In this document: in pieces, positions 1,024-63,200 of the stretch | How the letters are laid out: every line of letters begins with the position of its first letter | Numbering within the stretch: position 1 is the first letter of the stretch | Origin: Liolophura sinensis | Lineage: Eukaryota; Mollusca; Polyplacophora; Chitonida; Chitonidae | NCBI RefSeq assembly: GCF_032854445.1 | Contig: NC_088305.1 | Location: forward strand, 1,555,001 to 1,619,000 | DNA: 64,000 nt | Direction of reading: 5' to 3' | Position numbers and translations under genes: made by a program | Notes under the pieces: model-generated | Told to the model about the DNA's origin: nothing | The model's database searches: none | Seen by the model: the letters and a program-made list of their open reading frames with translations, nothing else

Positions 1024-4000
1024 CTGAACGCAGAAAGAGCATAGAATTGAACAATTTTGCAGGCCAGATCTGATAATCATGTAATTTCGATGCAAGTCAC
1101 ACCCTATCGTGAATTGTAGGCCCCCAAATGCGTTTTTGTATTAAGATGACAGATCTACAATTTTTCCCTGTACTAGTCCACGTTCGTGCGGAGTAACCAT
1201 GAGCTTGGCAGGAACAAACCCTTACGGTTCCTGACCCCATATGGTCTCCACTCAGCCGGGTACCTGGCAATGTATGGTTATGTGTTTTTCTCCAAGTTGT
1301 GTCTGAACCGGCATTTATCTCCATTCAGAAATTTTCTTTAGACAACTGAAATGTTTTCAGGTACAAATCGATATAACACAACAATCAAATATAGGAATTA
1401 GATAATACATCCATGTATGGTACCTACTGTGTACAGATAGCTTGATATCATATTGTTTAGCAGAAAAGAGTACGTCCTTTTTTATGTAGATGCATGGAAG
1501 TGTAGAAACATATAGCCGGGCAAATAACAAACAGCAGAAAACTATTGGCTCTACGTAATCGACAGGTGTGGTAAAATCATAGCCCATCGTGTACTTCTTT
1601 AGATTAATAAGGCTACTGGTTGTCGTTTGACATTTAATCACGTTACCTGACTGCATGGTTGTATATCCCTGTTTTTCTCCCATAAAGTTTGGGTGGGACC
1701 GGAAGGGCAAGTGGTCTGGCTCAGACATAGTAAGTTCTCCTTTGAATTACAAAAGAAACATCCCCAGTCAAACGTCAGAAATTGTTATAACGACGTGTCT
1801 TCAAAGTATACAATAACGAACGGTGAACAAAACCATGTGATATGCCTCACCAGAATTCCCACATTAAAGATGAACCATAAATGGGTTCAGGAAACATATA
1901 CGTAAAAAGTTTAATGTACTCTTGTTTCCAAATCATAGACCAATCTTTTGATTTTCTAAGAAAAGCGTAAAACATTTTTTCACAAAGTTGTGACTCGAGG
2001 CAGACGCTCGATTCTTCTTTCCAAAATAGTTATTTTCGTATAAAATCATTTTGTTTCAGTTTATCCAGAATTTGGGCCCAATTCTGTAAGTTTTAAGTTG
2101 AAATTGGGTACTTCTTCCAGGTGGTACCTTTTTGGGGAATAACTTGTCACAGTACCTGCGGTGAACCGACGGAGAAAGGCGGCTTTTTCTCGGGTTTGCC
2201 CGTACACACTGCTGCCATCGATAAAGGATGAGGCTTGATTCAGCTGCTCACGCTGGCCTGGTGTAGATTAGGTGTATACGAAGAAAGACTTTGTGTTAAT
2301 TGATCATCTTTGAACGTCAGCAACTTCCAAAGTTTGATGCTAGGATCGCGATTTATCGTGCTTTCTTCATAGGTGGTTTTTGTACTATAATCTTTGTATA
2401 TGCAGATATATTTCACTGTATATTACACGATAGCCACTACACACAATGGATAGTAACTACAGTGAAAACGCGATAAAAGCACCCAGCAAATCTTGTCAGC
2501 ATAGTCAGACGCGTTACAGTACACGTATGTGTAACAGCATTAGAGTATATGTGTGTGTAACAACATTACAGTATATGAATTTGTAACAGCGTTACTGTTC
2601 ATGTGTGTGTAACAGCATTACAGTATATGAATGCGTAACAGCATTACAGTGTATGTATGCGTTACAGCGTTACAGTGTATGCATGTGTAACATCATTACA
2701 GTGTTTGCATGTGTAGCATGATTACAGTGTATGCACGTGTAACAACATTACACTGTATGCATGTGTAACAGTGTTACAGTATATGCATGTGCAATCGCAT
2801 TACAGTATATGTAACTGCATTACAATATATGCATGTGTAACAGATTTATAATATTGGCGGGGATCCATCTAACTGGGAATGGTTTAAAATTTTCGTCGAA
2901 GACAACTTAAATGTTAGCTGAATTTAGCATATTAATTACTTGTGTTACAACGTAAAGTCTAAATCAGTTCAAGTACGTGTGCACTAGATTACTTCAAAAT
3001 GGATAAAAGAAAAAGCCCTCACCTTGTCGACAGTTTAAGTCTGTCACTGGAGCTGACCGTGGAAAATTAAGACATTTACGTCCCCAACCCTGGAAAATGT
3101 CGTTCTCTGGAACGTCTATGTTGAAACATTTCCCCCTGACGTGTGAAAGAAGCAATCACAAATTATTCCGTACAATATATGAATGAAAACGAAAGTTAGC
3201 TGTAATTACCTTCAACGGAGACATACTTACAGTAAACACCGAAATGTTTCAGTGAAACAAAATTCATACAGTGATATTATAGTGCACATGAAAACTTTGT
3301 GATCGTCTTTACAATTTCTTAGTTTACATTCTCGGCGTACATCCCCCCTGGATAACACAATATAGGAATGACGAACTCACTATAAAGGCTTTCTCACCAC
3401 ATATTGTAAAGAATTTTATGAAAGAACGCAAATCTGGTATAATCGATGCAATAATCTATACGAAAAAATGTTGAACATTTATGGGAAGTGATGGTCTTAC
3501 GTGGGAATGTCTTGGTTACAGCAGTCAATGACGGACTGTCGGTGACCTACATGGAGGGGCAGAAAAGAACCAGTGAAAGATTTCAGTATCATTTGCTTCT
3601 GGGGTATCAATACCCATGCCATAAACTGATCATCTATATACCCCTCGACCAGTTCCGTTCACCAACAACCACTTTAATAATTTTGAAAAAGCTAACTTAT
3701 ATTATAACTGGAAAGAACAAGCCTTCAAAGTATTGTAAGTTCGTTAAAATCAACTGCGTCATTTTAATTCTCAAAGCCACCTTTTAGCAGCTTGTAAACC
3801 TTGGAACTTGTATTCTTCTGATTTTAGACGCTCTTTTGTTTCCTTTGCGGGGCTGGTTGGCTAACAGTCAGTGGACATAACTTCAGCTAGGTCCTAACGA
3901 TATCTGAGTTGCGACACGGATAAATCAGAAATGACCATTTGCGACAAGAATGAAGCAGAAATGACCCTTTGCAAACGGGTCAAACAGAAATGACCATATG

Positions 4001-8869: not shown

Positions 8870-10343
8870 CAGGATGTGTAATTCACGTATGTAGCCTACT
8901 CACGCTGGTGAGGATGTGTAATTCACATATGTAGCCTACTCACGCTGGTGAGGATTTGTAATTCACATATGTAGCCTACTCACGCTGGTGAGGATGTGTA
9001 ATTCACATATGTAGCCTATTCACGCTAGTGAGAATGTGTAATTTACATATGTAGCCTACTCCCGCTGGTGAGGATGTGTAATTCACATATGTAGCCTATT
9101 CACGCAAGTGAGAATTTGTAATTCACATGTGTAGCCTACTCACGCTGGTGACGATGTGTAATTCACATATGTAGCCTATTCACGGTGGTGACGATGTGTA
9201 ATTCACATATGTAGCCTATTCACGGTGGTGAAGATGTGTAATTCACATATGTAGCCTATCTACTCTGGTGAGGGTGTGTAATTCACATGTGTAGCCTACT
9301 CACGCTGGTGAGGATGTGTAATTCACATATGTAGCCTATTCACGCTGATGAAGATGTGTAATTGACATGTGTAGCCTACTCACGGTGGTGACGATGTGTA
9401 ATTCACATATGTAGCCTATTCACGGTGGTGACGATGTGTAATTCACATATGTAGCCTATTCACGGTGGTGAAGATGTGTAATTCACATATGTAGCCTATT
9501 TACTCTGGTGAGGGTGTGTAATTCACATGTGTAGCCTGCTCACGCTGGTGAAGATGTGTAATTCACATATGTAGCCTATTCACGCTGATGAAGATGTGTA
9601 ATTGACATGTTTAGCCTACTCACGGTGGTGAAGATGTGTAATTCACATATGTAGCCTATTTACTCTGGTGAGGGTGTGTAATTCACAAGTGTAGCCTACT
9701 CACGGTGGTGAAGATGTGTAATTCACATATGTAGCCTATTTACTCTGGTGAGGGTGTGTAATTCACATGTGTAACCTACTCACGCTGGTGAGGATGTGGA
9801 ATTCACATATGCAGCCTGCTCACGCTGGTGAGGATGCGTAATTCACATGTGTGGCCTGCTTAAGCTGGTAAGGATGTGTAATTCACATGTGTAGCCTATT
9901 CACGCTGGTGAGGATGTGTAATTCACATATGTAGCCTATTTACTCTGGTGAGGGTGTGTAATTCACATGTGTAGCCTATTCACGCTGGTGAAGATGTGTA
10001 ATTCACATGTGTAGCCTGCTCATGCTGGTGTGGATGTGTAATTCATATGTGTAGCCTGCTCATGCTGGTGTGGATGTGTAATTCATATGTGTAGCCCACT
10101 CATGCTGGTGAGGATGTGTAATTCACATATGTAGCCTATTTACTCTGGTGAGGGTGTGTAATTCACATGTGTAGCCTACTCACGCTGGTGAAGATGTCTA
10201 ATTCACATATGTAGCCTATTTACGCTGGTAACGATGTGTAATTCACATTTGTAGCCCACTCACGGTGTTGTGGATGTGTAATTCACAAGTGTAGCCTACT
10301 CAAGGTGGTGAGGATGTGTTATTCACATATGTAGCCTACTTAC
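8870..10343 (-). repeat. 40-bp minisatellite carrying a 5' splice-site motif in each unit
   Basis: About 37 units of GTAGCCTACTCACGCTGGTG plus AGGATGTGTAATTCACATAT. On the minus strand each unit reads ...CTCACC(A/G)xC|GTGAGTAGGC, with GTGAGT, GTGAAT or GTAAAT after the border. The rightmost unit is the consensus donor GTAAGTAG of the candidate exon at 10344-10386. Thus the unit equals about 9 nt of exon end plus 31 nt of intron start. Confidence 0.9.
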
Positions 10344-10386
10344 GGTTGTGAGACTGGAGACTGTTATTAACGGTATAAGGAATTTC
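10344..10386 (-). CDS. Candidate upstream peroxidase exon
   Basis: 43 nt between a strong acceptor (TTTTTTGTTTCAG) and a consensus donor (GTAAGTAG). Only one frame fits the phase-0 start of the exon at 7466: KFLIPLITVSSLTT. It may be signal or propeptide sequence. The donor is the first unit of the 40-bp array that follows. No homology can be seen, so it is inferred from splice signals and phase only. Confidence 0.4.
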
Positions 10387-26600: not shown

Positions 26601-29600
26601 GACTCAGAGTCATCTCAGGCTTATGATCCCTTTGAACTACATGTGTATGGTATCAGTATCAGCAGAGTGATTAGCAGTGAAAGGTTTATGGGTAGAGAAA
26701 AACACAGTGGTGCCCAGGGGCAAACACCACACGTACATACCCGAGGTGCTGCTTCCTGACAAATCAAACACGACCGATTCAAATCACATCATTGAATGTC
26801 TCCTCATCTTTACAGAGAAAAAATTTGGTGGTACAGCTACGGCTAGGATGCTGTCACCATGGTAACCTACCTCTTTCTGAGGTTGAGGCTGAGCCGCTGG
26901 TTTGTCTGCGGGGGTGGGCTCTTCAGGAACAGAGGGTACACTTGGCTCTTGAGCTGTGCCTGTCGAGGGTTGGGAGAGCTGACTGGATAAGCTCCCTTGA
27001 TCACCTTGTCCACCAGAGGGAGCTTCAGACTGGCCCTTTTGCCCTTCAAAGTCTGGAAACTGCTAACACACCAGAAGAAATCAATAACCATATTATGCAG
27101 TCACCTATTTGTACATGTAATGTAAAATATTTGAACAAACTAACTTATTTATTTATTTCTTTATTTATCTGACTGGAATTTCATGACATGTTCAAGAATA
27201 TTTTAGTTGGTGGCAGACCTTCCCACGTACAACTGGAGAGCAAGCCAGCATGAGCTGGTTTTGAACTCCCAGCAACAACATTGGTCAGAGGCCCCTGGGT
27301 CAAATGCTTTTATTCTACGTGTACAATAGTCTTAAGATAGATCATATTTCATAATAATGAATGTCAGTGATGTGGACCAAGTCTTTCAACTATCAATTTA
27401 ACCTTTGGGAGAATTTCTTGAGAAATTGACTTGTTTCCTCATAAGCCTATAACAGACTACTGTAGCTACTTTAGCATTGGTACACAGCAAACCCGGTATG
27501 AAGTGAAGACTCACAGGACAAGCTTTCGCTGTCGCTGGTTTAACCAGAGATGTATGAAACCCAAATATAATTTATTCAGTGAAATTAGAATTCAAATAAC
27601 TAAATTAATAAATACATAAAAGTAGCTTTGTAAGCTTCACTTGTTTGTTTTCTTTCACTTTAAATCTGGTACATACGTGATATTACATGGAGAAACAGAA
27701 TATTCCAATCTTCATGTTATATGTGCATACAGAAAATCTGATTTCTTACTTACCGCTGGGGAATTTCTGACACGAGGTGACTGTTAAAATGAAGAAAAAA
27801 ACAAAAAAAACAAGGAGAAATCATGAGAAATAATGTTCAGGAGAAGATTATCAACAATGTAATGATACGCCTGGATACCTTGTGACAGCTAATACATTGT
27901 GTACATACATATCACATACATAAAACACAAAGTTGCTACAACATTAAAAATCAAGTCATACCCTAGAGTTGAGTACATGTAGACCTGCACAGATTCACTA
28001 GCCTAAGACAACTTAGCTTTACTGAACATTTCTATTACATTATAGGGTTAGCATTTTAAAGTAAAGCAGGTAGGGCTTGGTGCTACTGGTGTGAAGACAT
28101 TTCTGTGTTGGGGGTACTGGAGTTAGAATTACCATAAATCCTCAACAAATTCAACAAGTAAAGGGTTAATTTCAACGCATTTTGAAAACATGATTCATAA
28201 GATTTTCAACACTTAATATACGTTGTCCCGGTACATGTATGGGGCACATATGAACTTTATACACATTACATAATAACCTGTCCGGGTAGATCAAGTAACA
28301 CATTTCTTATGTTCGAATCTGTCAGTGGTCAAATTTGGTGAGGACTTAGGGGAGGTCAACCACACTGTGCATGTCTACTGCGGGTAAATTTTACTGAGGG
28401 TATTAGAAATGAAAATGACAAAACTATTTCAATTGGACTGACTGATTAATCGCTGTCTAAATACTGTGTTTACACATTTGTTCACTGTGGTCAGGATTAT
28501 GGGTGGAGGAAACCAGAGAGCCCAAATAATAATGATAATCTGGCTTAGTTCAAAACAACTATCAGGTTTGATTTTGAAATAAACTGAAATATCGACCTAT
28601 ATTGGCATCATTATTCAGATTTACACTCCATGAATGACTATAAATCATGAATATGATCAAGTACAAGTTATACATGTATCCATATGTTATACAACATCCA
28701 GTGTTATTTCTCAGTCCAATATTCGTCACTTATTTAGATCAGGGTGAGTGACTAAACATACAATATGACTGTATACATATGACCTGTATACATATGACTG
28801 TATACATATGACCTGTATACATGACTGTAGACATATGACTGTAGACATATGACTGTATACATATGACTGTATACATATGGCTGTATACATATGCTATACA
28901 AGCTTTGTATAATTTCTCATTCCAATATTAGTCAGTGGAGCAAGCCAGACCAACAATTAATGTTACCATATCATGACTCATTACAACACTGATGAACTCA
29001 TTGTATTGCTGGTCAAATGGTAGTTGAGAAAAATGATGAAAGATTAACAATGAAAAACTGTTACATATGTACATTTTGTAGTGTTAAATTCTTTCTCCGA
29101 GCAACGTTAAACAGTGAGACTTTGGGAATGACAGAATAATTATTCATTAATCCATGAATGTTATCATTTACCTGTAGATGTTAGATGTTATAACATTTAC
29201 CTGCAGATGTTAGATGTTATAACATTTACCTGTAGATGTTAGATGTTATAACATTTACCTGCAGATGTTAGATGTTACAACATTTACCTGCAGATGTAAG
29301 ATGTTATAACATTTACCTGCAGATGTAAGATGTTATAACATTTACCTGCAGATGTTAGATGTTATAACATTTACCTGCAGATGTTAGATGTTATAACATT
29401 TACCTGCAGATGTTAGATGTTACAACATTTACCTGCAGATGTTAGATGTTACAACATTTACCTGCAGATGTTAGATGTTACAACATTTACCTGCAGATGT
29501 TAGATGTTACAACATTTACCTGCAGATGTTAGATGTTACAACATTTACCTACAGATGTTAGATGTTATAACATTTACCTGTAGATGTTAGATGTTATAAC

Positions 29601-32600
29601 ATTTACCTGTAGATGTTAGATGTTACAACATTTACCTGCAGATGTAAGATGTTATAACATTTACCTGCAGATGTAAGATGTTACAACATTTACCTGCAGA
29701 TGTTAGATGTTATAACATTTACCTGTAGATGTTATAACATTTACCTGCAGATGTTAGATGTTACAACATTTACCTGCAGATGTTAGATGTTACAACATTT
29801 ACCTGTAGATGTTAGATGTTACAACATTTACCTGTAGATGTTAGATGTTATAACATTTACCTGTAGATGTTAGATGTTATAACATTTACCTGCAGATGTT
29901 AGATGTTACAACATTTACCTGCAGATGTTAGATGTTACAACATTTACCTGTAGATGTTAGATGTTATAACATTTACCTGTAGATGTTAGATGTTATAACA
30001 TTTACCTGTAGATGTTAGATGTTATAACATTTACCTGTAGATGTTAGATGTTACAACATTTACCTGCAGATGTAAGATGTTATAACATTTACCTGCAGAT
30101 GTAAGATGTTATAACATTTACCTGCAGATGTTAGATGTTACAACATTTACCTGCAGATGTTAGATGTTATAACATTTACCTGTAGATGTTAGATGTTATA
30201 ACATTTACCTGCAGATGTAAGATGTTATAACATTTACCTGCAGATGTTAGATGTTACAACATTTACCTGCAGATGTTAGATGTTATAACAAGCCAGCATG
30301 AGCTGGACTTGAACTCACAGAGACCGCATTGGTGAGAGACTCCTGGGTCATTATGCTGCGCTAGCGCTTTAACCGACTGAGCCAGGGAGGCCCCAACACT
30401 CTAAATAACTTTATAATGAATATTACCAGGTTCACGTGAGAAGTAGTGCTAAACGATGCCTTCCAGGCTTTACAACTGTCAGACTGACATTGGAACACTA
30501 AACGCTGCTGTGTTGTGAAGGTGCGCCTCACTAAATCATCTGCATGCCAGTGGGAGGCTAAGTTATGAGTTACCTGCTGGGAGGAACTGGCCCATAAGGA
30601 TACAAATTGGTCACTGTGGATGGAAACTCAGAGGGCGCCAACAAATTTAATAAAATATGTACTAATATTTAATATTTTGGGGTTTATTTCAATGAAAGTT
30701 TTGTAGTCTTTGTCCTTCCCCCCAGGGACTGGTGAGTCTCACACAGCGGGGAGATTCCATGGTGCGGATGGACAGCGGTGTCATCAGAATCTTCACAGTT
30801 ATTCCAGGGCTAGAAATTGGGTTGCTTTTGGAAATCCATTTTCACTTAACGTAAAACTTGACATATGAAACTTAATCCTAATGTTACAGTTAAATAGTGT
30901 TGTGGGGCTATGATGACGACCATGTTTTCAAACATCACATTTTTTGATGCTCAGTATGTAAATGTCTAGGATTCACAAGTGTAAGCTGAAATCCCTATTC
31001 ATGTTCTTCTTTACACTAACGACAAAACCTTTAATACTGTAATTCTTCAACCTTTTCACATGTTTGTAAGGTGTTTATCTGAGCATATTTTGAAGGCATT
31101 ATTCTGTATAGACTGACAAAATTATATCTTTTGTAGAGCCCTGAAATTGTCCAACCCAACCAATGTAGTTTTGTCTCCAAAATCAAATTAAAAACCTGCA
31201 TAAATTGCACTGAAAGTTGCTCTTTCATATGCGAAACGGTTAAGGAATTACGACACTGGCTATCCTTGTCCTGACATCCCATGAAAACAACATGTATCTC
31301 AAAAACTACATTCACGTGCTCTTCAAGGTTTAATTATCAGAGCACCCATTACTTCAAGTTGGCAATAATACACTACAATAATATACTACAAAAAACATTT
31401 ATTAAATACGCTATACATGTACACCTTGAGGAGAAATTGACCATTGTACACCATACAAAAGCTGTCGGCACACATGTACAAATACACATACTGAGAATTC
31501 TGCAATTTGCAGCAGTACTCTAATTATATGCAACAAAATACAATCAACCATACACTGTACTCTGTACTCGCCACAATCAAAGTGGCAAGTCTAACTGAAG
31601 AGCAAAGGCTTTAGCAGTATTACGTCCGTTATTTATTAATCTGATTGTTGCTTAATGCCATACTGAAGAATTTTTCACTTCCATGTGACATAAAAGCAGT
31701 CAGTTTAAAGGGAGGAGGAAATCACCATGCTGGAGGTAAACCACCGACCTTTGGCAAGTTACTGCTGAACTTTCCCATGTACCACACTCAGAAGTGTACA
31801 TGATATAGGTGGAAGACAAGTGGTAAACAGCCCAGTAAGCACTATCACCCACTTCTTGTCACCAAGGGCCCACAAACAGTGTTACCACAGGTTAACAAAG
31901 ATATATACATTTACACATATAGACATTTCAACTATGCCCTGAAGAAAGATTGACAATTCTAACGATAGCAAAATAGAATGCCTACATCTTGACACAAAAT
32001 CTTTGAACATATAAAACACACAAGTACATGCAGCAAAGCTGAGCTGCATGAAATCAATGCTGCAAAAATTACAGGTACATCTAAATGTACACCCTGCACG
32101 GAGGCAGGGTGAAAAGTCTTAAAGAGGAGCCAATCAGAAAGGCTCGTAACCGAATATTAGTGGGACAACTGAGCATCACCCTCACACACACATGTACGAG
32201 CAAGGCAGATATGATATGGCATGGATGAGGTTGTGAGATGACCAGTGAAGTCTTTAGTCAGGTTAGCAGGCAGTGGTTTATGTAGAATTACGAATCATGG
32301 TGCACAGGTTAGCGGCAAAAACAATATATGCAACAACGAACGACAAAAAGCGACAAAGACGGAAATGCACATAGACACATAGAAGGGGGATGTCCTTACG
32401 ACTGGCGATGACAAATCTAACTGGGTGCGATCAACTCTCCGAGCCTGTTGGATCAAAAACAACGCAACATTGAAATTATGAGGACTGCCAATCTTGGGCG
32501 CTCTGCATTTTTTTTTAAAAGCTAAGAGGCGAGCTGAGATGGCTGAGGATATGGGGGTCCTTGTTCCTCAAAATGCTGACTGATGTTCTTGTATATCACA

Positions 32601-38600: not shown

Positions 38601-41600
38601 AAGTGACATAATGTTGGAGAAAAGTGGCATAATGTTGGAGGAAAGTGACATAATGTTGGAGAAAAGTGGCATAATGTTGAAAGAAAGTGACATAATGTTG
38701 GTGGAAAGTGGCATAATGTTGGTGGAAAGTGACATAATGTTGGTGGAAAGTGACATAATGTTGAAAGAAAGTGACATAATGTTGGAGAAAAGTGGCATAA
38801 TGTTGGTGGAAAGTGATATATTGTAAAACAACACAAACTACCACAAGACTGCTTAGCCGTGAGAGCATAAACAACTGGACTCACAAAACTCACTTTTGCT
38901 TTTTTGATGAAGTCTGTTTTCAGTAACTGTTTCGCTGTTGGCCTGAAAGTGACACATGACGATTAAAAAACCAAAACAATTTAAATTATCGAACTGTTAA
39001 ATATGGTCAAAAACAAATGGTTAAAAAAAATGAGCCAGCACTTTAAAGGAAAAGATCTCTGAAGCTCGAAGTATTCATCACTACATAGACCACTTAAAAC
39101 TATGCAGGACTATATTTTTATAGATTTCTGTGAAAGGAGTTAAAGGCGTTCAAACATTTTAATTCCACAGTGGGCTTTATGGACCATACTGTCAGAGTTC
39201 AGGAGCTCTGACGCCACAGGAAGTTTTTCCAACTCTGATCACAGCACTGAATGTTTGAATAACTCTTTTTACCCATAAGTAAACAATTACTGAAATAATG
39301 TTCCCAAAAATACCTTCCTTTTGGTGAATCTGAGGAAAAACAGGTGATGTGACGTCAGAGTTCCTAGATACCGTCAGTACAGCTCATAAAGCCCACCATA
39401 GTGTTCAAATACATGAATGCCATTTAACACTCTTAAAAATATCGGAAAACTAAATGAAAGCATTTCGATGCATAGTTTTCAATTGTCTGTATGATGACCC
39501 TTACTTCATATTTTAGCTTCTTTTTACTTTAACAACCTGAGAGAGGTCTCACGGTTTTAGGGAAGATGTTGCACTGTTCTATATAAATGTACGAGTACAC
39601 ATTAAAAGATGAATGAAAGAATACAATGAATAATAAATATCATGGTAAATGACAAAATTTTGCTTCAAACATTCCATTTTTTTAAGGTAAATAAATGTCA
39701 TGAAATACCCTTTTGGTGAAAAGACTTACATTTTCCCAGTAGGATAACACCTTCCAAACAAACCTCAAAACACCTTTCTAAGACCACTAGAACTCTCAGA
39801 ATTACGCTAAATGTACAACTTAATCATGGGCAAAATTTTAGCTAATTAACTGTAATTATTGCAGAAAGATAATGACTGTTCCACTACTGTGGGACTAAAG
39901 TTCTAGGCATATAGAATGTTTTATGCAAAACAAACGAAAAGAAAAAGAACAGGAAAGCATCTGTAGGGAACTCCTAAGTCAGGTTAACAACTACACATGA
40001 CGGAATTATGGTGAATGCCCCAGTTTGAAACACTCATCTATTTATTTATTTCATTGTTAGTTTAACATGTACAGTATGTACATGTACAGAATTATTGATT
40101 TCCATCATGGCTGTCAGGCTTTCCGTAGATGAAACTGAGAAGAGACACAGAGGAGGCTGACCCTTCTCAACTGACACCTGACAAATCTCTAGACTCCAGA
40201 CTCCAGTTCACCCAGTGACAGCTGCATTTCATTTATTTATCTACTTGCTTGATTGGCGTTTTATGTTATACTCAAGAATATTTCATTTATACAACGGCAG
40301 CCAGCATTATGATGGGAGAAAACAGGGCAGAGCCTGGGGGAAACCCACGACCATCTGCAGGTTGCTGACACACCGACCACCTCAGCCACGGAGGATCCCA
40401 GCTGGATTTGAGACAACTTCACTAGTCAAGGTAAGTCCCTTATGAGGGATGCATGCATCATACAGGGATTATGGCTTTGCTTGCTAAGCAACCAAAGTGT
40501 CATGTGACCAACCTTTTCTCGGGTTCCTTCATGAGACACATGGCTATCATCTTTCTGAACACTTTACTGTATGCCTTATACTGGTCTTTATCATCAGCCC
40601 CAGTGTCTAAGGTTGGGGGATCATTCTGTAGAGTCAGCATCAAAACCTGTGAACAGAGGGTCAGGTATGGAGTCAGTTTCTAGGGTTGGGGGATCATTCT
40701 GTAGAGTCAGCATCAAAACCTGTGAACAGAGGGTCAGGTATGGAGTCAATGTCTAGGGTTGGGGGATCATTCTGTAGAGTCAGCATCAAAACCTGTGAAC
40801 AGAGGGTCAGGTATGGAGTCAGTGTCTGGGGTTGGGGGATCATTCTGTAGAGTCAGCATCAAAACCTGTGAACAGAGGGTCAGGTATGGAGTCAGTGTCT
40901 AGGGTTGGGGGATCATTGTGTAGAGCCAGCATCAAAACCTGTGAACAGAGGGTCAGGTATGGAGTCAGTGTCTGGGGTTGGGGGATCATTCTGTAGAGCC
41001 AGCATCAAAACCTGTGAACAGAGGGTCAGGTATGGAGTCAGTGTCTGGGGTTGGGGGATCATTCTGTAGAGTCAGCATCAAAACCTGTGAACAGAGGGTA
41101 AGGTATGGAGTCAGTGTCTACGAATGGGGGATCATTGTGTAGAGTCAGCATTCAAACCCGTGAACAGAGGGTCAGGTATGGAGTCAGTGTCTGGGGTTGG
41201 GGGATCATTCTGTAGAGTCAGCATCAAAACCTGTGAACAGAGGGTAAGGTATGGAGTCAGTGTCTACGAATGGGGGATCATTGTGTAGAGTCAGCATTCA
41301 AACCCGTGAACAGAGGGTCAGGTATGGAGTCAGTGTCTGGGGTTGGGGGATCATTCTGTAGAGTCAGCATCAAAACCTGTGAAAAGAGGGTAAGGTATGG
41401 AGTCAGTGTCTAGGGTTGGGGGATCATTGTGTAGAGTCAGCATCAAAACCCGTGAACTGATGGTAACGGCATGAAGTCAGCTGTGAATATAGGATAACGC
41501 ATGGGGTCTAAAGTTAGATGTCAGTCAGTGGTCAGCAATAAAACCTGTTGATAACTCACCTTCATGGGTGGGTATTTGTGATAGGGAGCAGTGCCTGTTG

Positions 41601-44600
41601 CCAATTCTATGGCAGTGATTCCAAAGCTCCAGATGTCAGCCTTGAAATCGTACCCAGCGACTTGCTCCATGACCTCTGGTGCCATCCAGCATGGTGTCCC
41701 CACGAAGGTGTGCCGGACCGCGTCTCTCGTCATGTCCTTTCCGGATGTGGCCAGTTTGGCACTTACCCCGAAATCTGCAAGCCGCACAATGTACAATGTA
41801 ACAATAGCAGGAGAATGGGAATACATAGGGAATACATACAGTTACCAATAGCTAGGCTTGTTTAGAAGGGTACTGCACCCTGCCCCTAAACTGTGCACCC
41901 TGCCCTTTTCTCTCTGTCACAATGTAACTAATTAAGTAGGGGAAATTGCCACCCTCTCTTTTTTTAAGAATGTACCTTTGCACCCTGCCCCATTTTTAGG
42001 AATGTACCTTTGCACCCTGCCCATTCTTTGAGGAATGTACCTTTGCACCTTGGCCCATTTTAGGAATGTATCTTAGCACCTGGCCCATTTTTTGAGGAAT
42101 GTACCTTTACACCCAGCCCCTTTTTGGAGGAATGTAGCTTTGCACCCTGGAAAAAGTTGAATGGATTTTCACCCGAGGCAGCTACATTCGTGTTCATTAT
42201 GAGCAGATTGTTCTGACACCATTTTGATCGTGTTTTTAACTTACAGCTTGCTTGATAGATACAGTTTTGGGTGCAAACCCCACTTGTGGTGTGGACACCG
42301 TTCACTGGAATTGATAAATGCAGATGGTTGTGGGTTTCCCCTGGATTGAGCGGTGTTTCCTTCCATCATAATGAACAAACTTCATGGATTCATACAGGTT
42401 GCACATTAAAAGACACAACAGCAAAAACCACACAGAGACTCATATCTAGAAAAAACTAAAGTTTCTGATGGCAAAACTTTTAATATGACATTGTGACAGT
42501 GCATAAAGAAATGTTATAAAATGCAACCCAAATCAAGGTTTCGGAGAACTTTTAGTATGTGAAGGAAGGCAGTGTGTATGAAAACTTTTGTCATTGCTAA
42601 CCATAATATTTTTGTTCCATTAACATATTGGTTTCAATACAGCTTGATTAGTTTGAGCGTCCAGCAGTTTGTTTGGGAGTTCACGATTTCCTGAACTAAG
42701 GGCCCTCCGTGGCTTGGGGAAGGTCTGCAAGCATCCTGCCGACTGTCGTGGCTTTTTGCTGGGTTCTGCCAATTTCCTCCCACCATAATGCTGGTCGCCG
42801 TCGTACAAGTGAAACAATCTTGAGTACGGCGTAAAACATCAATCAAATAAATAATAAATTCATAACCTAAAATGTCTCCAGACATGGCCCAGACACATAT
42901 TTCGAAGAACCTAGGACTGTTTGTCATACCTATACATATACTGTATAACATACCTAAACCAATCAAACTTTTGTTGGAGGAGTAAATGTAGAAACTGAGA
43001 AAATGATATACATGCAGAAACACAGACAAATGTCCAATTCTACTTAAATTCTTGCCTCACCTGCAATATACACTGACCCATCTTCACCAAGTAAAATGTT
43101 CCCAGCTTTGATATCCCTGAAGACAGAAAAACAGTACATGTACATCTTGAGATAATATTTATTTGTTTATGTGGTCAATTGGTGTTTTATGCTGAACTCA
43201 AGAATAATTCACTTTTACGACAGTAATCAGTATGTATGTTAACAGATCTGTGTGTCTGGCCAGTGGTATACGGTATTCTGTGTTTATTTTCACAGGCCTG
43301 TGTATCTGGCCAGTGGTATACAGCTATTCAGTGTGTATGTTGACAGATCTGTGTATCTGCCCAGAGGTATACAGATATCCTGTGTGTATTTTAACAGGCC
43401 TTTGTATCTGGCCAGTGGTATACAGGTATTCGGTGTGTATTTTAACAGGCCTGTGTATCTGGCCAGTGGTATACAGGTATTCTGTGTGTATTTTAACAGG
43501 CCTGTGTATCTGGCCATTGGTATACAGGTATTCAATGTGTATTTTAACAGACCTGTGAATCTGGCGTTGATATACAGGTATTCCGTGTATGTTAACAGAC
43601 CTGTGAATCTGGCATGTGGTATACAGGTATTCTATGTGTATATTAACAGGCGTGTGTATCTGGCCATTGGCATACAGGTATTCAATGTGTATTTTAACAG
43701 ACCTGTGTATCTGGCCAGTGGTATACAGGTATACAATGTGTATGTTAACAGACCTGTGAATCTGGCGTGTGGTATACAGGTATTCAGTGTATGTTAACAG
43801 GCCTGTGTCTCTGGCGTGTGGTATACAGCTATTCAGTGTATATTTTAACAGGCCTGTGTATCTGGCCAGAGGTATACAGGTATTCTGTGTGTATTTTAAC
43901 AGGCCTGTGTATCTGGCCATTGGTATACAGGTATTCAATGTGTATTTTAACAGGCCTGTGTAACTGGCCAGTGGTATACAGGTATTCAATGTGCCTGTTA
44001 ACAGACCTGTGAATCTGGCGTGTGGTATACAGGTATTCAGTGCATGTTAACAGGCCTGTGTCTCTGGCCAGTGGTATACAGCTATTCAGTGTGTATTTTA
44101 ACAGGCCTGTGTATCTGGCCAGAGGTATACAGGTATTCTGTGTGTATTTTGACAGGCCTGTGTATCTGGCCATTGGTATACAGGTATTCAATGTGTATTT
44201 TAACAGGCCTGTGTAACTGGCCAGTGGTATACAGGTATTCAATGTGTATTGTAACAGACCTGTGTATCTGGCCAGTGGTATACAGGTATTCTGTGTGTAT
44301 TTTAACAGACCTGTGTATTTGGACTGTGCTATACAGGTATTCTGTGTGTATTTTAACAAACCTGTGAATCTGGCATGTGGTATACAGGTATTCAGTGTAT
44401 ATTAACAAACCTGTGAATCTGGCCAGTGGTATACAGGTATTCTGTGTGTATTTTAACAGACCTGTGTATCTGGCATGTGGTATACAGGTATTTAGTGTGT
44501 ATGCAGGTATTCAGTGTGTATATTAACAAACCTGTGAATCTGGCATGTGGTATACAGGTATTCAATATGTATGTTAACAGACCTGTGAATCTGGCGTGTG

Positions 44601-47600
44601 GTATACAGGTATTCAGTGTGTATTTTAATAGACCTGTGTATCTGGCGTGTGGTATAAAGGTATTCAGTGTGTATGCAGGTATTCAGTGTATGTTAACAGA
44701 CCTGTGTATCTGGCCAGTGGTATGCAGGTAATCCAACCCCTTGAGCACTTCCTTCAATATCGTTGCTATAGCGACTTCCTCCAGCACACCATTCTTGAAC
44801 TGGCCACTACGTATTCGTGTCTTGATGATATCTAACATGGAACCTGGGTACGGAGGGAAAAACGTGCAATATTAACACAAAATACCAGACAAAAAAAGGG
44901 ACAGGTCTTGTATTGGTAAGTGTGAAACAAATACCTGTTCAGTAGAGCTTGCAGTAGTACTTCAACCAGGTTTCTTAGAAGAGACTACATCGCAAAACAA
45001 AAATCAATATTCACTAATCAAATCAAATTTCTGTACTTACCAAGAGTAAGGTAATCTTCAACCTTTTTGGCCTCTAAATCACTATTTTCAGTAGAATTTA
45101 TGCATACAATCATTATGAAAATTATGCTAAAATCATTCATTTGTGTGACTAAAGGTCTGTTAAGCATCATAAAACTAAGCATATTACTCTACACCTCATA
45201 GTTCTCTCAGAATGGTTCAAAATATTTGCTGCAGAGGCAGTCGAAAAGGTTGGAAAAATTAGGGTATACAACACTGGCAAGTAGTTTGCTGGGAAGAAAC
45301 CGACAACCATCCACAGGTCGCTGGCATACCTTTCCATGTATGACCAAAGAGGTAGCCAGCATGGCCTGGAATTGAATTCACAGCGACCACATTGGTGAGA
45401 GGCTCCAATATCAAGTTTAAGAATTAAATAAAATTAAAAACAGCTTTAGATATCTGGAACTAAATGAGGAAACTGATGGAGAGAATTACGGTTTACCTAC
45501 TGCCCAAATGTATAAAGCTGTTTTTAAAATAAGTGGTGTGCAATCGCATAATACGGCTGCAGTTTAGTCATATGATGTGTACATTACAGGTGTAGGATGT
45601 GTATTGCCATGGATACAGCTAGCTCCACCCACCTCCAGCACAGAGCTTCATGATGACCCAGAGTTCCTCCTTGACAACAAAGGATGTGTAGTAACAGACA
45701 ACATTCTCATGCTTACACTGACTCATCGCCTGGATCTCTTTCTGCAAAAATACAACAAAGTATTTAGGGAAAAGAATTTATGTATACAAGAAGAAGTCAA
45801 ATATGTCCTTTTCATATCACTATACATATACTCTTCACTTAAAGTCTACATAAAGTTAAAAGATAATGTCTATATCAAATCTGGGATTAAGTCTATCTTA
45901 ATCCCAAATCACATGGAAGGAAACAGGGAACTGTGTCCAGAAAGGCTTTGAATCATTTTTTTGTTTTTTTTTTTCACCAAGATATTCTATGAAGTTTTCA
46001 AGATGTGTGTTTGAGGCTATGTATTTTTCCAAATTTTTTCAAATTATTAAAAATTCATTAAAAACAGACTAAACTGATCCTAAGGTAGCTTAGGGCTAAC
46101 AATTTTTAGAAAATAATTACTTCAAAATGTTGTGCAAACAAATCTGGGAAATTCTTATGAAGAAAGTGATGAGATCCAAACAAGACACCATATTTAAAAT
46201 GTTTTTCTATCATGGTGTGGCACAGCTAAATATTCTATAAAGATAAATAGAACTGTTTTGGAGACAGTTTTACAAGGTCATTACAAGGTCATTTCTACAC
46301 AGCGGCTTTACTGGCTTACTGTTGTCAGACATCTGACAGTTGTGCGATGACTATAAATACCATAGTGGTGTAACAGCAAAGGCTGAACATGTGCACTCTG
46401 TAGAATGGTCTAATCGTAATATGATGTTTACTTGAGGTCGCTTGCATTCATTCCTTCAATAACAAATGTTACATGTACATACTGGGGAAGTTTACCAGAA
46501 AAGTGTCAAAGGCTGGTTGTTTATGCCTAGAATTCCTGAATCATCCTCACATTAATGAAAACTTCTTCAGTACACTATTAAGCAATAATCAAATAATTTG
46601 AAATAGAATTTGTAAAAAGAAAAAAGGAAATAGATGATCTAAAACTTTATCCAGGACAAAGTTCCTCATTTTGCCCCATTCTGAGGGACTGATCTAAGAA
46701 ATGTGTATGTTTTGAGGCTTGTGTCGCAGGTGGGAGGATACTCTTGTGACACCAGTATTTTATCATACTGATTTACTTCTTAAAAAAAAGGACTATTTTG
46801 GAGCGAAATGTTAGGTCATTTAATCAAACCTCATACATTCGAAATACATTTTGAAACATAATCCATACCAAGAGTTCCTCCACAGATGTGTTGCATTTCT
46901 CTAGGTTAATCCTCTTGATGGCACACCTTTCGTTCCTCGGTTTACAAATAGCTGCTTGGACAACAGCCGTGGCTCCTGCACCTACACATCAGAAATAGAA
47001 ACCAAGGTTTTCACACTTAAAACGTCAACACTACCTGATGACGTGCACTGTATAAGGTAATAAAGTCATGTGTACAAAGTTTTTAGAAAACATCAGCTCT
47101 TTACGAGAAGCAGGCTAAACATCCACGGTCCAGTGTTTACTGATATTTGCCGAACAGTATTGAGTTGTGACGTTGCCTAGAGCCACTAATTATGGTTGAA
47201 GAGCAGTCAGATCTAAGAAAGTCTTGCAAAAAGCAACTCGTATCTTTGAAAGTTTGCAAAACATCGGCTTTAATCAGAGGCCCTTCATTATGACAGAAAA
47301 AATGCTGACTGGTATTGATGCCTTTGCTATCTAGCTTTACCCCAGTGCCAAATTTACCGTATTTTAGGTAGGTGGTTTTCGAACAGGACTAACACTGTAT
47401 TGGAATAGCAGCCGGGATAGTTCTCCTTAAAACTATATTGTTTTGGATGTTTATAGATGGATGACATAGGTGAAGTTTCTCAACCGTCTATGGACAGATC
47501 ACTAACCTCCTGACCTGGATTGGTTAGGTCATGTGACAGGTCAGGTGACACTGACATGTTAAGCTGGGCATTCAATGATGTTTGTGTGCAGCTTGGCATC

Positions 47601-50669: not shown

Positions 50670-52194
50670 TACTATCCAAAAAAGAAACGCATAACCCGGT
50701 TTTTTGCGGAGGTGATGCAGTCTTTTCAATTATGCATAACTAAATAAGAATTGCTATTCTGCAAATATTTTTTTACACAGATTAAGGAAGGGTCCATATC
50801 TAGACAACAAGGCCATCAACTTGAGGTAAGACACTCACAATGAGTCTCCCACTTGAGTGGAATGTCAGTATCTGTTGTGACCACCACGGGCACGAATAAC
50901 AGTTCTGACACGCCTTGTCATGGACTGGATGAGACGCTGGATAGAGGCCTGGGGAATGTTCTGCCACTCCTCCTGCAAACATGCAACTTGCTCTTGAAGC
51001 GTTTGGGGTTGAGGTTGACGTTGGCGTAGACGTCGATCAAGTTCATCCCACAGATGCTCAATTAGGCTAAGATCCGGGGAACGGGACGGTCAGGGTAGCA
51101 CATTTACATTGTTTTCGGCGAGGAAGTCCCTTGTGACACGTGCCGTGTGCGGTCTGGCGTTGTCCTGCTGGAACAACTCCCGCTGTACGTCAACGACAGG
51201 TAAGAGGTGTGGCTGCAGGATGGTGTCTCGGTAGCGTACGGCCGTAAGATTTCCCTGACAAGATTTGTACGACCAGTATACGATATTGCTGCCCTCATCA
51301 TCACACTCCCTCCACCAAATCTGTCCACTTGGCGTACGCAGTTAGGGGCATAACGTTCGTGAGCACGTCTGTAAACCCGGTTTCTACCATCACGTCTCTG
51401 CAATAGGAATCTGGACTCATCACTGAACCAAATGCGTCGCCAGTTGCGTAGATTCCATGCAGTAACGTTGTTACACCATCGGAGGCGATTGGCGCGATGG
51501 TGAGGATGCAGCACGATCCCAACATAGGGCCTCCTGGCTCTCAGTTCATGTTCCCTCAGCCTGTTCCGCACCGTCTGACCTGATATCGTCCTCAGTCCCG
51601 GTATGCTGGCTGCTGTGCTTTCAGCTGTAGCACAACGGTCACGCAAATGGAGGACCCTTATGTAGCGATCTTGGGCTGCTGTAGTGACACGTGGTCGACC
51701 TGAACGCCGACGGTTATTTGTTGTCCCAGTATTGTTGTAGCGTGCAGCAAGCCGTGAAATCGTGCTCTGGCTGACGTGTAGACGCCTAGAAATGGACGAT
51801 TGGGACTCTCCAGCTTGAAGTCTTCCAATGGCAATATTTCTTGTGACAGTGTCAAGACGTGGCATGTTGAATCAGCTTGAAAACACCACTTGAAAGATGC
51901 CGATTTCCGGCCCGAAGTTGCGGTTTTATAGTCACACACTGCATGCTTTCCATGCGTAAGTTCGGCGTGTAAGACTGCACGTGATGCAGTGTGGTGCTGT
52001 ATTTTTTACTTCTTCCAAAAACGGCCTCCAAACTCAACATTTTCAACCAAGAAATGTTTTGAGGAATAAAATGTGTGCTAACTGTGACTATTAACAATAT
52101 TAAAACACATTTAGCTCATGAAATGAAGACAAAATGTATTTATTTCATTTTAAAATAAAACAAAACACCTATGCGTTTCTTTTTTTGGATAGTA
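50670..52194 (-). mobile_element. Tc1/mariner-type transposon, 1.5 kb, inactive
   Basis: Terminal inverted repeats TACTATCCAAAAAAGAAACG (left) and the same in reverse with one extra A (right), flanked by TA target repeats. It carries a broken DD34E transposase. It is inserted into the middle of a SINE, so it arrived after that SINE. Confidence 0.93.
50865..51865 (-). pseudogene. Tc1-type transposase, disrupted
   Basis: The N-terminus MPRLDTVTRNIAIGRLQAGE with SISRRLHVSQSTISRLAARY is the HTH DNA-binding part. WFSDESRF holds the first catalytic Asp. A frameshift lies near 51,245-51,262. In the second frame FQQDNARPHT holds the second Asp, and IEHLWDEL holds the Glu 34 residues later (DD34E). 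A stop codon (TGA at 51,091-51,093) stands where Trp of WPSRSPDL is expected. The stop codon is at 50,865. Two independent defects, so no active enzyme from this copy. Confidence 0.93.
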
Positions 52195-60231: not shown

Positions 60232-63200
60232 CTGGAAGGATAAAACAAAAAAAATTCTTACTCAGATCAGGTGCTTAAAACAATTCTTACGACTTCCAAG
60301 AGAAGAACAAAATTGCTTTGAAGATTCATATTCAAGAAATTGAAAACATGATACTCACGCAAAAACACCTTATGATGTTAACGAAAATAAACGTAACAAT
60401 CAGGGAAATCAAGAAATCAAAATGAAGCAATGTACATGGAATATAAAATCATGTGTAAAATCATCGTGTAAAATCATCCAGATTTATTAAATTATGTGTA
60501 GCTCAAACCCCACCTGGAACCCCACGTATGAAAACAGCCCTAGTACTCATGCACGTGTATATTTATTTATTTATTTGACTGGTGTTTTGCGCCGTACTCA
60601 AGAATATTTCACCTATACGACGGCGGTAAGCATTATGGTGGGAGGGAATTGGGCTGAGCCCTGGGGAAACCCACAACCTCTACAGGTTGCTGGATGACCT
60701 TTCAACCTACGACCAGAAAATAAAACATACACATGTATACATGTATTGACCCTCATGACCCTCACCACCATCACCATCACCAATACCACCACCAGTTAGT
60801 ATCAAGACCCTCACCACCATCACCATCACCACTACCACCACCAGTTAGCATCAAGACCCTCACCACCATCACCATCACCACTACCACCACCAGTTAGCAT
60901 CAAGACCCTCACCACCGTCACCATCACCAATACCACCACCAGTTAGCATCATGACCCTCACCACCATCCCCATCACCACTACCACCACCAGTTAGCATCA
61001 AGACCCTCACCACCATCACCATCACCACTACCACCACCAGTTAGCATCATGACCCTCACCACCATCACCATCACCACTACCACCACCAGTTAGCAACATG
61101 ACCCTCACCACCGTCACCATCACCAATACCACCACCAGTTAGCATCATGACCCTCACCACCATCACCATCACCACTACCACCACCAGTTAGCATCATGAC
61201 CCTCACCACCAACACCATCACCAATACCACCACCAGTTAGCATCATGACCCTCACCACCATCACCATCACCAATACCACCACCCATTAGCATCATGACCC
61301 TCACCACCGTCACCATCACCAATACCACCACCAGTTAGCATCATGACCCTCACCACCATCACCACTACCACCACCAGTTAGCATCATGACCCTCACCACC
61401 ATAATAATCACCACCACCAGTTAGCATCATGACCCTCACCACCATTCCCATCACAATCACCACTACCACCACAAGTTAGAATCATGACCCTCACCACCAT
61501 TCCCATCACAATCACCACTACCACCACAAGTTAGCATCATGACCTCATCACTGTCACCATCACCCATTAGCATCATGACCCTGACCACCGTCACAATATA
61601 CCACCACCCATTAGCATCATGACCCTCACGACCATCACAATATACCACCACCCATTAGCATCAAGACCGTCACCACCGTCACAATATACCACCACCCATT
61701 AGCATCATGACCCTCACCACCATCAACAATACCACAACCAGTTAGCATCATGACCCTCACCACCGTCACAATCACCAATACCACCACCCGTTAGCATCAC
61801 GACCCTCACCACCGTCACCATCACCAATACCACCATCAGTTAGCATCATGACCCTCACCACCATTCCAATCACAATCACCACTGCCACCACAAGTTAGCA
61901 TCATGACCCTCACCACCATCACAATATACCACCACCCATTAGCATCATGACCCTCACCACCGTCACAATATACCACCACCCATTAGCATCATGACCCTCA
62001 CCACCATCACCAATACCACCACCAGTTAGCATCACGACCCTCACCACCATCACCACCACCCATTAGCACCATTGGCATTATTACCACAGTTTTTAAATAA
62101 TCACCATCACCAGCATTGCAATCGCTGCAAACATCACCACACACCAGACACCACTGCTACCAGACACCACACACCACTGCCACCAGACACCACTGCCATC
62201 AGACACCACAGCCACTGGACACCAGACACCACCACCACCATAAAGCACACACACACTGCCAACAGACACCAGACACTACTATCACCAACACCACAGAGGC
62301 ATGGAAAACCTCAACTCTATATATGAAGTACTTTTTGAGGTATATTTATATGTATCATACACGCACTGATTCTAATACCCAATACACTAAGTCATGAATT
62401 TTATACTGAATGGTAATTAATATGCTCACAGCATGTCTCCAGTGGAACAAGCCCTCCAGTTATTGTGCTCTACATGTATGCAAGACCTCAACTCAAACAC
62501 ATCAAGTACTTTACAAGAAATAACTGTCAAGCTAATAATGAAAAATTGGGACAGATCTATTGATGTGGTGTATAAATTCTGGGTTCTGTTCCCTGCCCTG
62601 AGGTGAGTATTACCTGGTGTTTTGTATATATGCTGGGTTGTGTTCCCCTCCCTGAGGTGAGCATTACCTGGTGTTGTGTATAAATGCTGGGTTGTGTTCC
62701 CCTCCCTGAGGTGAGCATTACCTGGTGTTGTGTATAAATGCTGGGTTGTGTTCCCCCCCCGAGGTGAGCATTACCTGGTGTTGTGTATAAATGCTGGGTT
62801 GTGTTCCCCTCCCTGAGGTGAGTATTACCTGGTGTTGTGTATAAATGTTGGGTTGTGTTCCCCTCCCTGAGGTGAGTATTACCTGGTGTTGTGTATAAAT
62901 GCTGGGTTGTGTTCCCCTCCCTGAGGTGAGTATTACCTGGTGTCGTGTATAAATGCTGGGTTCTGTTCTACACGAAGACATTATAACCTTCATCTAAATA
63001 CTTTAACCTTCATCCAATCATTGTAAGCTTTATCAAGACATTGTAACCTTCATCCAGTTATTGTAACCTTCATACAGCTGTTGAAGCGTTAAACATTTTA
63101 TTGTTACACCTTCATCCAGTTAGTGTGACATTCATCCAGTTATTGTTACACCTTCATCCAGTTACTGTAACCATCATCCCATTATTGTGTGAGTAAGAAA

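Follow-up and report, generated by a model that had tools for sequence, protein, structure and literature searches.

Tandem arrays of exon-intron borders in a chiton OXSR1/SPAK-type kinase gene and at other conserved exons

In a 64,000-nt stretch of the genome of the chiton Liolophura sinensis (the window; G000:C11:1555001-1619000), intron 4 of an OXSR1/SPAK-type kinase gene consists almost entirely of copies of a 51-bp unit that spans the border between exon 4 and the intron. The same gene carries a second array, of the opposite type, in front of exon 7, and comparable arrays adjoin roughly every thirteenth conserved exon that we sampled elsewhere in the genome. The affected genes presumably have to be spliced correctly amid numerous decoy sites. 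Judging from its sequence, the 51-bp array has the anatomical features of the minisatellites known as "mirages" in amphioxus. We consider it probable (roughly 0.82) that it is one, that is, a local tandem duplication whose copies would be neutral passengers, tolerated through the pairing of splice sites across the exon. All gene coordinates below are positions in the window, and the genome searched comprised 609,464,459 bp in 632 contigs. The assembly was first published as Liolophura japonica (passages of PMC11068029), the species having since been corrected to L. sinensis (PMC12441733).

Results

The 51-bp array in intron 4

The exons of the kinase gene were located on the minus strand, from 48021 down to 17585, with a protein query, and exons 4 and 6 were confirmed by matches to PDB structures. 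Exon 4 (44702-44843, 142 nt) ends with YLHTTGQIH followed by AG. A phmmer search paired it with structures of SPAK/OSR1 at a best E of 5.2e-15, its codons aligning to SPAK GLDYLHRNGQIH. The exon reaches an authentic 5' splice site at 44700-44701 (CAG|GTCTGT), and the frame carries on, as IHR|DIKAGN, into exon 5 (43061-43116), which starts at 43116. The authentic border is thus intact at the edge of the array. Intron 4 measures 1585 nt, of which approximately 1478 nt (93%) are array, in good agreement with the initial annotation of this DNA, which had described the intron as almost nothing else. Its last ~107 nt, in which the pyrimidine tract is normal and TCTTCAG is present, are non-array sequence.

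The array covers 43224-44730 on the minus strand. Tandem Repeats Finder (TRF) reported the 51-bp period at 43223-44502, and rows with other periods extended the array to 44730. A wrap-around alignment gave 28 full inner copies, from 44662 down to 43275, with a partial row at each end; together with the authentic border copy this makes 29, the approximate number first proposed. Each unit is made up of 29 nt of the end of exon 4, the donor and 22 nt of intron, as had also been proposed. Furthermore, the array displays a 253-bp higher-order period and matching blocks of units (44237-44035 and 43984-43782), both of which are signs of concerted turnover.

The units contain the conserved GQIHR codons, and the exon is homologous to SPAK/OSR1. 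This upholds the proposal that the coding exon seeded the array, and by its sequence exon 4 is the source of the 51-bp units. The C of the exon's CAT codon, which encodes the conserved His (YLHRNGQIH in SPAK), is replaced by T in 28/28 full array copies, and this change therefore belongs to the array. Unlike the full copies, the partial copy directly behind the donor retains the C. When a 153-bp piece of the array was searched against the genome, skipping simple repeats and very common words, all 14 matches fell inside the 51-bp array.

The donors had been described as near-identical, and here the alignment led to a different picture: the 28 inner copies comprise 13 with GT, 13 with GC and 2 with AT, so that 15/28 are without GT. 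With a stricter match, 12/27 were intact. As predicted, translation past the authentic donor gives RSVNIH and then a stop, placing the TGA six codons past the Arg.

A 73-bp array of the opposite type in intron 6

The second border array (40601-41480, minus strand) consists of 12 copies of a 73-bp unit, in which 27 intronic nt that include the 3' splice site TCTGTTCACAG are followed by the initial 46 nt of exon 7. This exon (40513-40646, minus strand) has the seed of the array at its 5' end. Exon 6 (41560-41787, minus strand, upstream limit approximate) ends in PPMK, matched OSR1 in phmmer (E 6.4e-40) and is followed by the donor AAG|GTGAGT after 41560. Intron 6 (41559-40647) is almost wholly 73-bp array, a degenerate copy of which comes, as judged by eye, within ~10 nt of the donor of exon 6. 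All seven genome matches of a piece of this array lay inside it, very common words again being skipped. With very common words skipped, pieces of both arrays thus match only those arrays, and an inserted dispersed repeat was rejected on this ground.

The authentic borders read CAG|GT for the 51-bp array and CACAG|GT for the 73-bp array, and the GT or AG is kept in 13/28 and 8/11 of the inner copies compared, respectively. We also read onward from the 8 inner acceptors at which the border matched exactly; each of them met a stop after 32 residues. With a series of donors behind exon 4 and a series of acceptors before exon 7, it follows logically from the predicted gene structure that correct kinase mRNA depends on the first of these donors and the last of these acceptors.

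Border arrays at other conserved exons

The array in intron 4 had been presented as if it were singular. In addition to the second array in the same gene, we found border arrays on 14 of 177 conserved exon hits (~8%) from three domain families, which rules out a one-off feature; such arrays had, moreover, already been described in amphioxus (passages of PMC3087553). They were present on 5/73 hits in the kinase sample, 8/81 in the myosin sample and 1/23 in the tyrosine phosphatase sample. Of the 138 kinase-domain hits, 73 (120-500 bp, chosen by eye) went into the kinase sample, in 66 loci, and all 81 myosin-head hits went into the myosin sample, in 55 loci. The phosphatase sample comprised 20 loci with 23 of 151 hits, namely the top-ranked hits of at most 500 bp, with near-identical paralogues removed by eye, plus three hits inside the loci.

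Eight of the 14 arrays were recovered by a mechanical scan for exon 24-mers recurring at least twice in the exon's own flank. In the kinase and myosin samples the scan flagged 9/154 hits, two of which were repeated exons in locus L074 and seven border arrays (L013, L017, L031, L077, L080, L096 and L106). In the phosphatase sample it flagged 1/23 (L122). The controls were empty, with 0/924 and 0/138 flags for swapped loci (0/1062) and 0/154 and 0/23 for the antisense strand (0/177). TRF together with inspection added six arrays (L042, L058, another exon of L074, L084, L086 and L111); in L042, L074 and L086, the exon part of the unit lies at or just beyond the hit of the hidden Markov model (HMM). 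Nine of the 14 are of the donor type (L031, L042, L058, L074, L077, L080, L084, L106 and L111) and five of the acceptor type (L013, L017, L086, L096 and L122).

Some candidates were left out of this count. In L101, a TRF array overlaps the exon hit, but by eye the true exon begins past the array. The two L074 flags (701-805 and 1797-1892) are exon copies resembling alternative exons, and the separate 31-bp array at 3047-3238 of this locus was counted. In this myosin gene, three similar exon-like copies (701-1892) resemble mutually exclusive alternative exons. Apparent border arrays were also seen by eye at L012 136-334 (donor type) and at L015 1-150 and L136 1165-1553 (acceptor type); their exons are outside the hit lists, and they are excluded from the 14.

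Are borders targeted?

We compared the number of arrays at borders with two null models, both of which take HMM hit ends as borders and use TRF calls, the result depending also on curation by eye. Under a seed-unit null, 14 of 93 non-redundant arrays were located at borders, compared to 4.9-6.6 expected (P 0.0002-0.005). Restricting the count to arrays of at least 2.5 copies gave 10/67 (3.5-4.7 expected, P 0.001-0.015), and the kinase and myosin samples alone gave 13/81 (4.1-5.5 expected). A mechanical overlap count in these two samples yielded 11 versus 4.4 expected under the seed null (P 0.003), in a set that includes the later rejected L101 and misses L042, L074 and L086. Under a whole-array placement null, in contrast, the 11 in the kinase and myosin samples were no excess over the 16.6 expected (P 0.97). 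We think that the seed null suits a growth process better, because an array seeded within an intron displaces the exon rather than overlapping it.

Border seeding is therefore 2-3 times chance under one null and not above chance under the other, and we do not claim targeting. Transcription-linked R-loops or repair events at splice sites, for instance, might make borders actively prone to arrays, and the seed-null excess speaks for this. However, the whole-array null, the dependence of both nulls on hit ends and TRF calls, and the fact that donor and acceptor borders are both affected (9 and 5) count against such targeting, which we regard as rather unlikely.

Fate of the inner splice sites

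We next consider the inner sites of 15 arrays, namely 13 sampled ones (L122 was excluded) and the two of OXSR1, copies beyond the match limit being uncounted. The GT or AG was intact in 103/126 inner copies. Border columns varied in 7/30 cases and other columns in 165/538, which is no difference (P 0.26; without OXSR1, 4/26 border columns, P 0.12). Similarly, 75/94 inner sites were intact in the 13 sampled arrays versus 71 expected, giving no signal of selection either to silence or to preserve them. Inner GT/AG sites drift like the neighbouring bases.

Reading on from the exon met a stop in 9/9 sampled donor arrays. The stop lies inside the first unit in seven of them, one base beyond it in L074 and ~36 nt on in L080 (printed translation, by eye). 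Among the acceptor arrays, read-through was translated for OXSR1 alone.

These data bear on the idea that the arrays are functional, many U1-binding donors regulating the gene either by splicing competition, in which read-through acts as a poison and leads to decay, or because U1 protects the intron from early polyadenylation. The 103 intact inner sites would fit such a role, as would the read-through stops in OXSR1 and in all nine other donor arrays, which a poison switch requires. However, the inner GT/AG columns are no better kept than their neighbours, GT is lost at 15 of the 28 OXSR1 donors, and the acceptor arrays (5 of the 14 and one in OXSR1) repeat no donor at all. A regulatory function is thus very unlikely.

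Other arrays and elements in the window

Tandem arrays with a period of at least 15 occupy 31% of the window; the figure is 39% for the OXSR1 span, compared to 8.5% for the 121 loci of the kinase and myosin samples. One of them, a 40-bp array of 37 copies on the minus strand (8871-10352), has a consensus with CTCACGCTGGTG on the plus strand, corresponding to the donor form CACCAGC|GTGAGTAGG on the minus strand. Its start coincides with the donor of a 43-nt candidate exon (~10386-10344), in a region that holds an animal haem peroxidase gene, and from its sequence it is likely another border array. A 54-bp array of 7.5 copies on the plus strand (62564-62968) has a consensus with CCTGAG|GTGAGTATT, which is donor-like on that strand, and no exon was identified there. 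In a long intron, a 29-bp array of 39 copies on the minus strand (29158-30290) has a consensus with CTGCAG|GTAAATGT on the OXSR1 strand, and no exon was recognised at its edges. Finally, an open frame on the minus strand (51107-51871) encodes Tc3-type transposase and helix-turn-helix domains.

Discussion

Relation to known systems

The name mirages was given to tandem repeats across exon-intron borders in the amphioxus gene Adh3, and further cases were reported in globins (BflGb6 and BflGb9), troponin C and PGBD5. Their units measure 10-72 bp in Adh3, 60 and 108 bp in PGBD5 and 150-160 bp in the globins, and AG/GT is kept in many, not all, of them (passages of PMC3087553 and PMC3902484). The Adh3 data and reverse transcription-PCR on the globins suggested that splicing is undisturbed by mirages (passages of PMC3087553). 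The array in intron 4 is similar in that its unit spans the border, the authentic border is intact at its edge and signs of concerted turnover are present. However, the chiton arrays belong to a mollusc, with 28 full inner copies in a single array and two arrays of opposite type in a single gene, and the present study adds a frequency on sampled exons. For the amphioxus mirages, splicing and length polymorphism were reported as well.

No report of mirages or border minisatellites in molluscs was among the matches listed in our literature search, which covered titles and the starts of abstracts, subscription papers being mostly outside it. The passages on tandem repeats, minisatellites and introns in the eLife chiton genome paper (PMC12005716) contain nothing on border arrays.

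Two other systems are comparable in part. The polyubiquitin gene UBC has dual-specific splice sites, tandem AG|GT sequences that are potentially donor or acceptor, but these bound coding ubiquitin units and are spliced variably (PMC10809524). The chiton units, in contrast, lie in introns and lead to stops when read through, and those of 51 bp show, by eye, no clear pyrimidine tract before the AG. Internal tandem repeats in human segmental-duplication genes indicate that boundary minisatellites can alter gene structure and form introns. Unlike the chiton arrays, they occur in recent primate paralogs, with units of 30 bp on average repeated four times, half of them in coding sequence (passages of PMC2812944).

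Origin and tolerance of the arrays

From these observations we infer how the 51-bp array was duplicated, how splicing chooses among its sites and that its copies lack a function. A short stretch astride the exon 4/intron 4 border would have undergone tandem duplication, after which common minisatellite processes such as slippage and unequal exchange would have multiplied it towards the intron, the 253-bp period pointing to amplification of blocks of units. The authentic exon and donor would have remained intact at the edge of the array, the exon being kept by selection, and the copies would be passengers that drift neutrally. Splice sites being paired across the exon by the splicing machinery, the exon-proximal one would win, at exon 4 the first of 29 donor copies and at exon 7 the last of ~12 acceptor copies, and normal mRNA would result.

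Several points weigh against this account. Six of the 14 sampled arrays, found by TRF and by eye, fail the scan for the exon concerned and so fall outside its swap and antisense controls. The seed-null excess is not what purely random seeding gives. Furthermore, exon definition is one of several ways to favour an exon-proximal site, and a 5'-to-3' order of transcription would explain the donor arrays, though not the acceptor arrays.

It could also be argued that the array created intron 4, by tandem duplication of AGGT, rather than invading an existing intron. The border CAG|GT has the form needed by duplication models, and gain of this kind has been proposed for amphioxus globins (passages of PMC3087553) and a potato gene (PMC4974935). 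However, the ~107-nt 3' end of intron 4, with its pyrimidine tract and TCTTCAG, is non-array sequence, and the intron therefore looks older than the array, which makes such a gain highly improbable here. Assemblies are known to go wrong at tandem arrays. Inflated or misjoined copies can nevertheless be practically dismissed, given that the copies differ by substitutions, that the pattern recurs at many separate loci and that the PacBio HiFi reads, averaging 8,347 bp (passages of PMC11068029), are longer than the 1.5-kb array.

Implications

While we favour a mirage minisatellite tolerated by splice-site pairing across the exon, border arrays could in addition be self-correcting: if an intact inner donor or acceptor were used, the wrongly retained piece could be excised in a second splicing step that restores the normal mRNA. 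Such a piece could be spliced again because both OXSR1 borders are AG|GT, so that it begins with GT and ends with AG. We regard self-correction as distinctly unlikely. If it were true, a genome in which several percent of the exons bear border arrays would tolerate them by re-splicing too and not by the first choice alone, and the arrays would offer a natural system in which to test exon definition and stepwise splicing.

Most work on splice-site choice relies on engineered duplications, and the chiton genome offers many natural ones, with up to 29 tandem donor copies or ~12 acceptor copies beside a conserved exon. Since a donor array needs its first site and an acceptor array its last, a single data set on these arrays can tell exon-based models apart from intron-based or first-come ones. 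Overall, the frequency of ~8% among sampled mollusc exons suggests that mirages are not confined to amphioxus and that they may feed intron gain and changes in intron length more widely.

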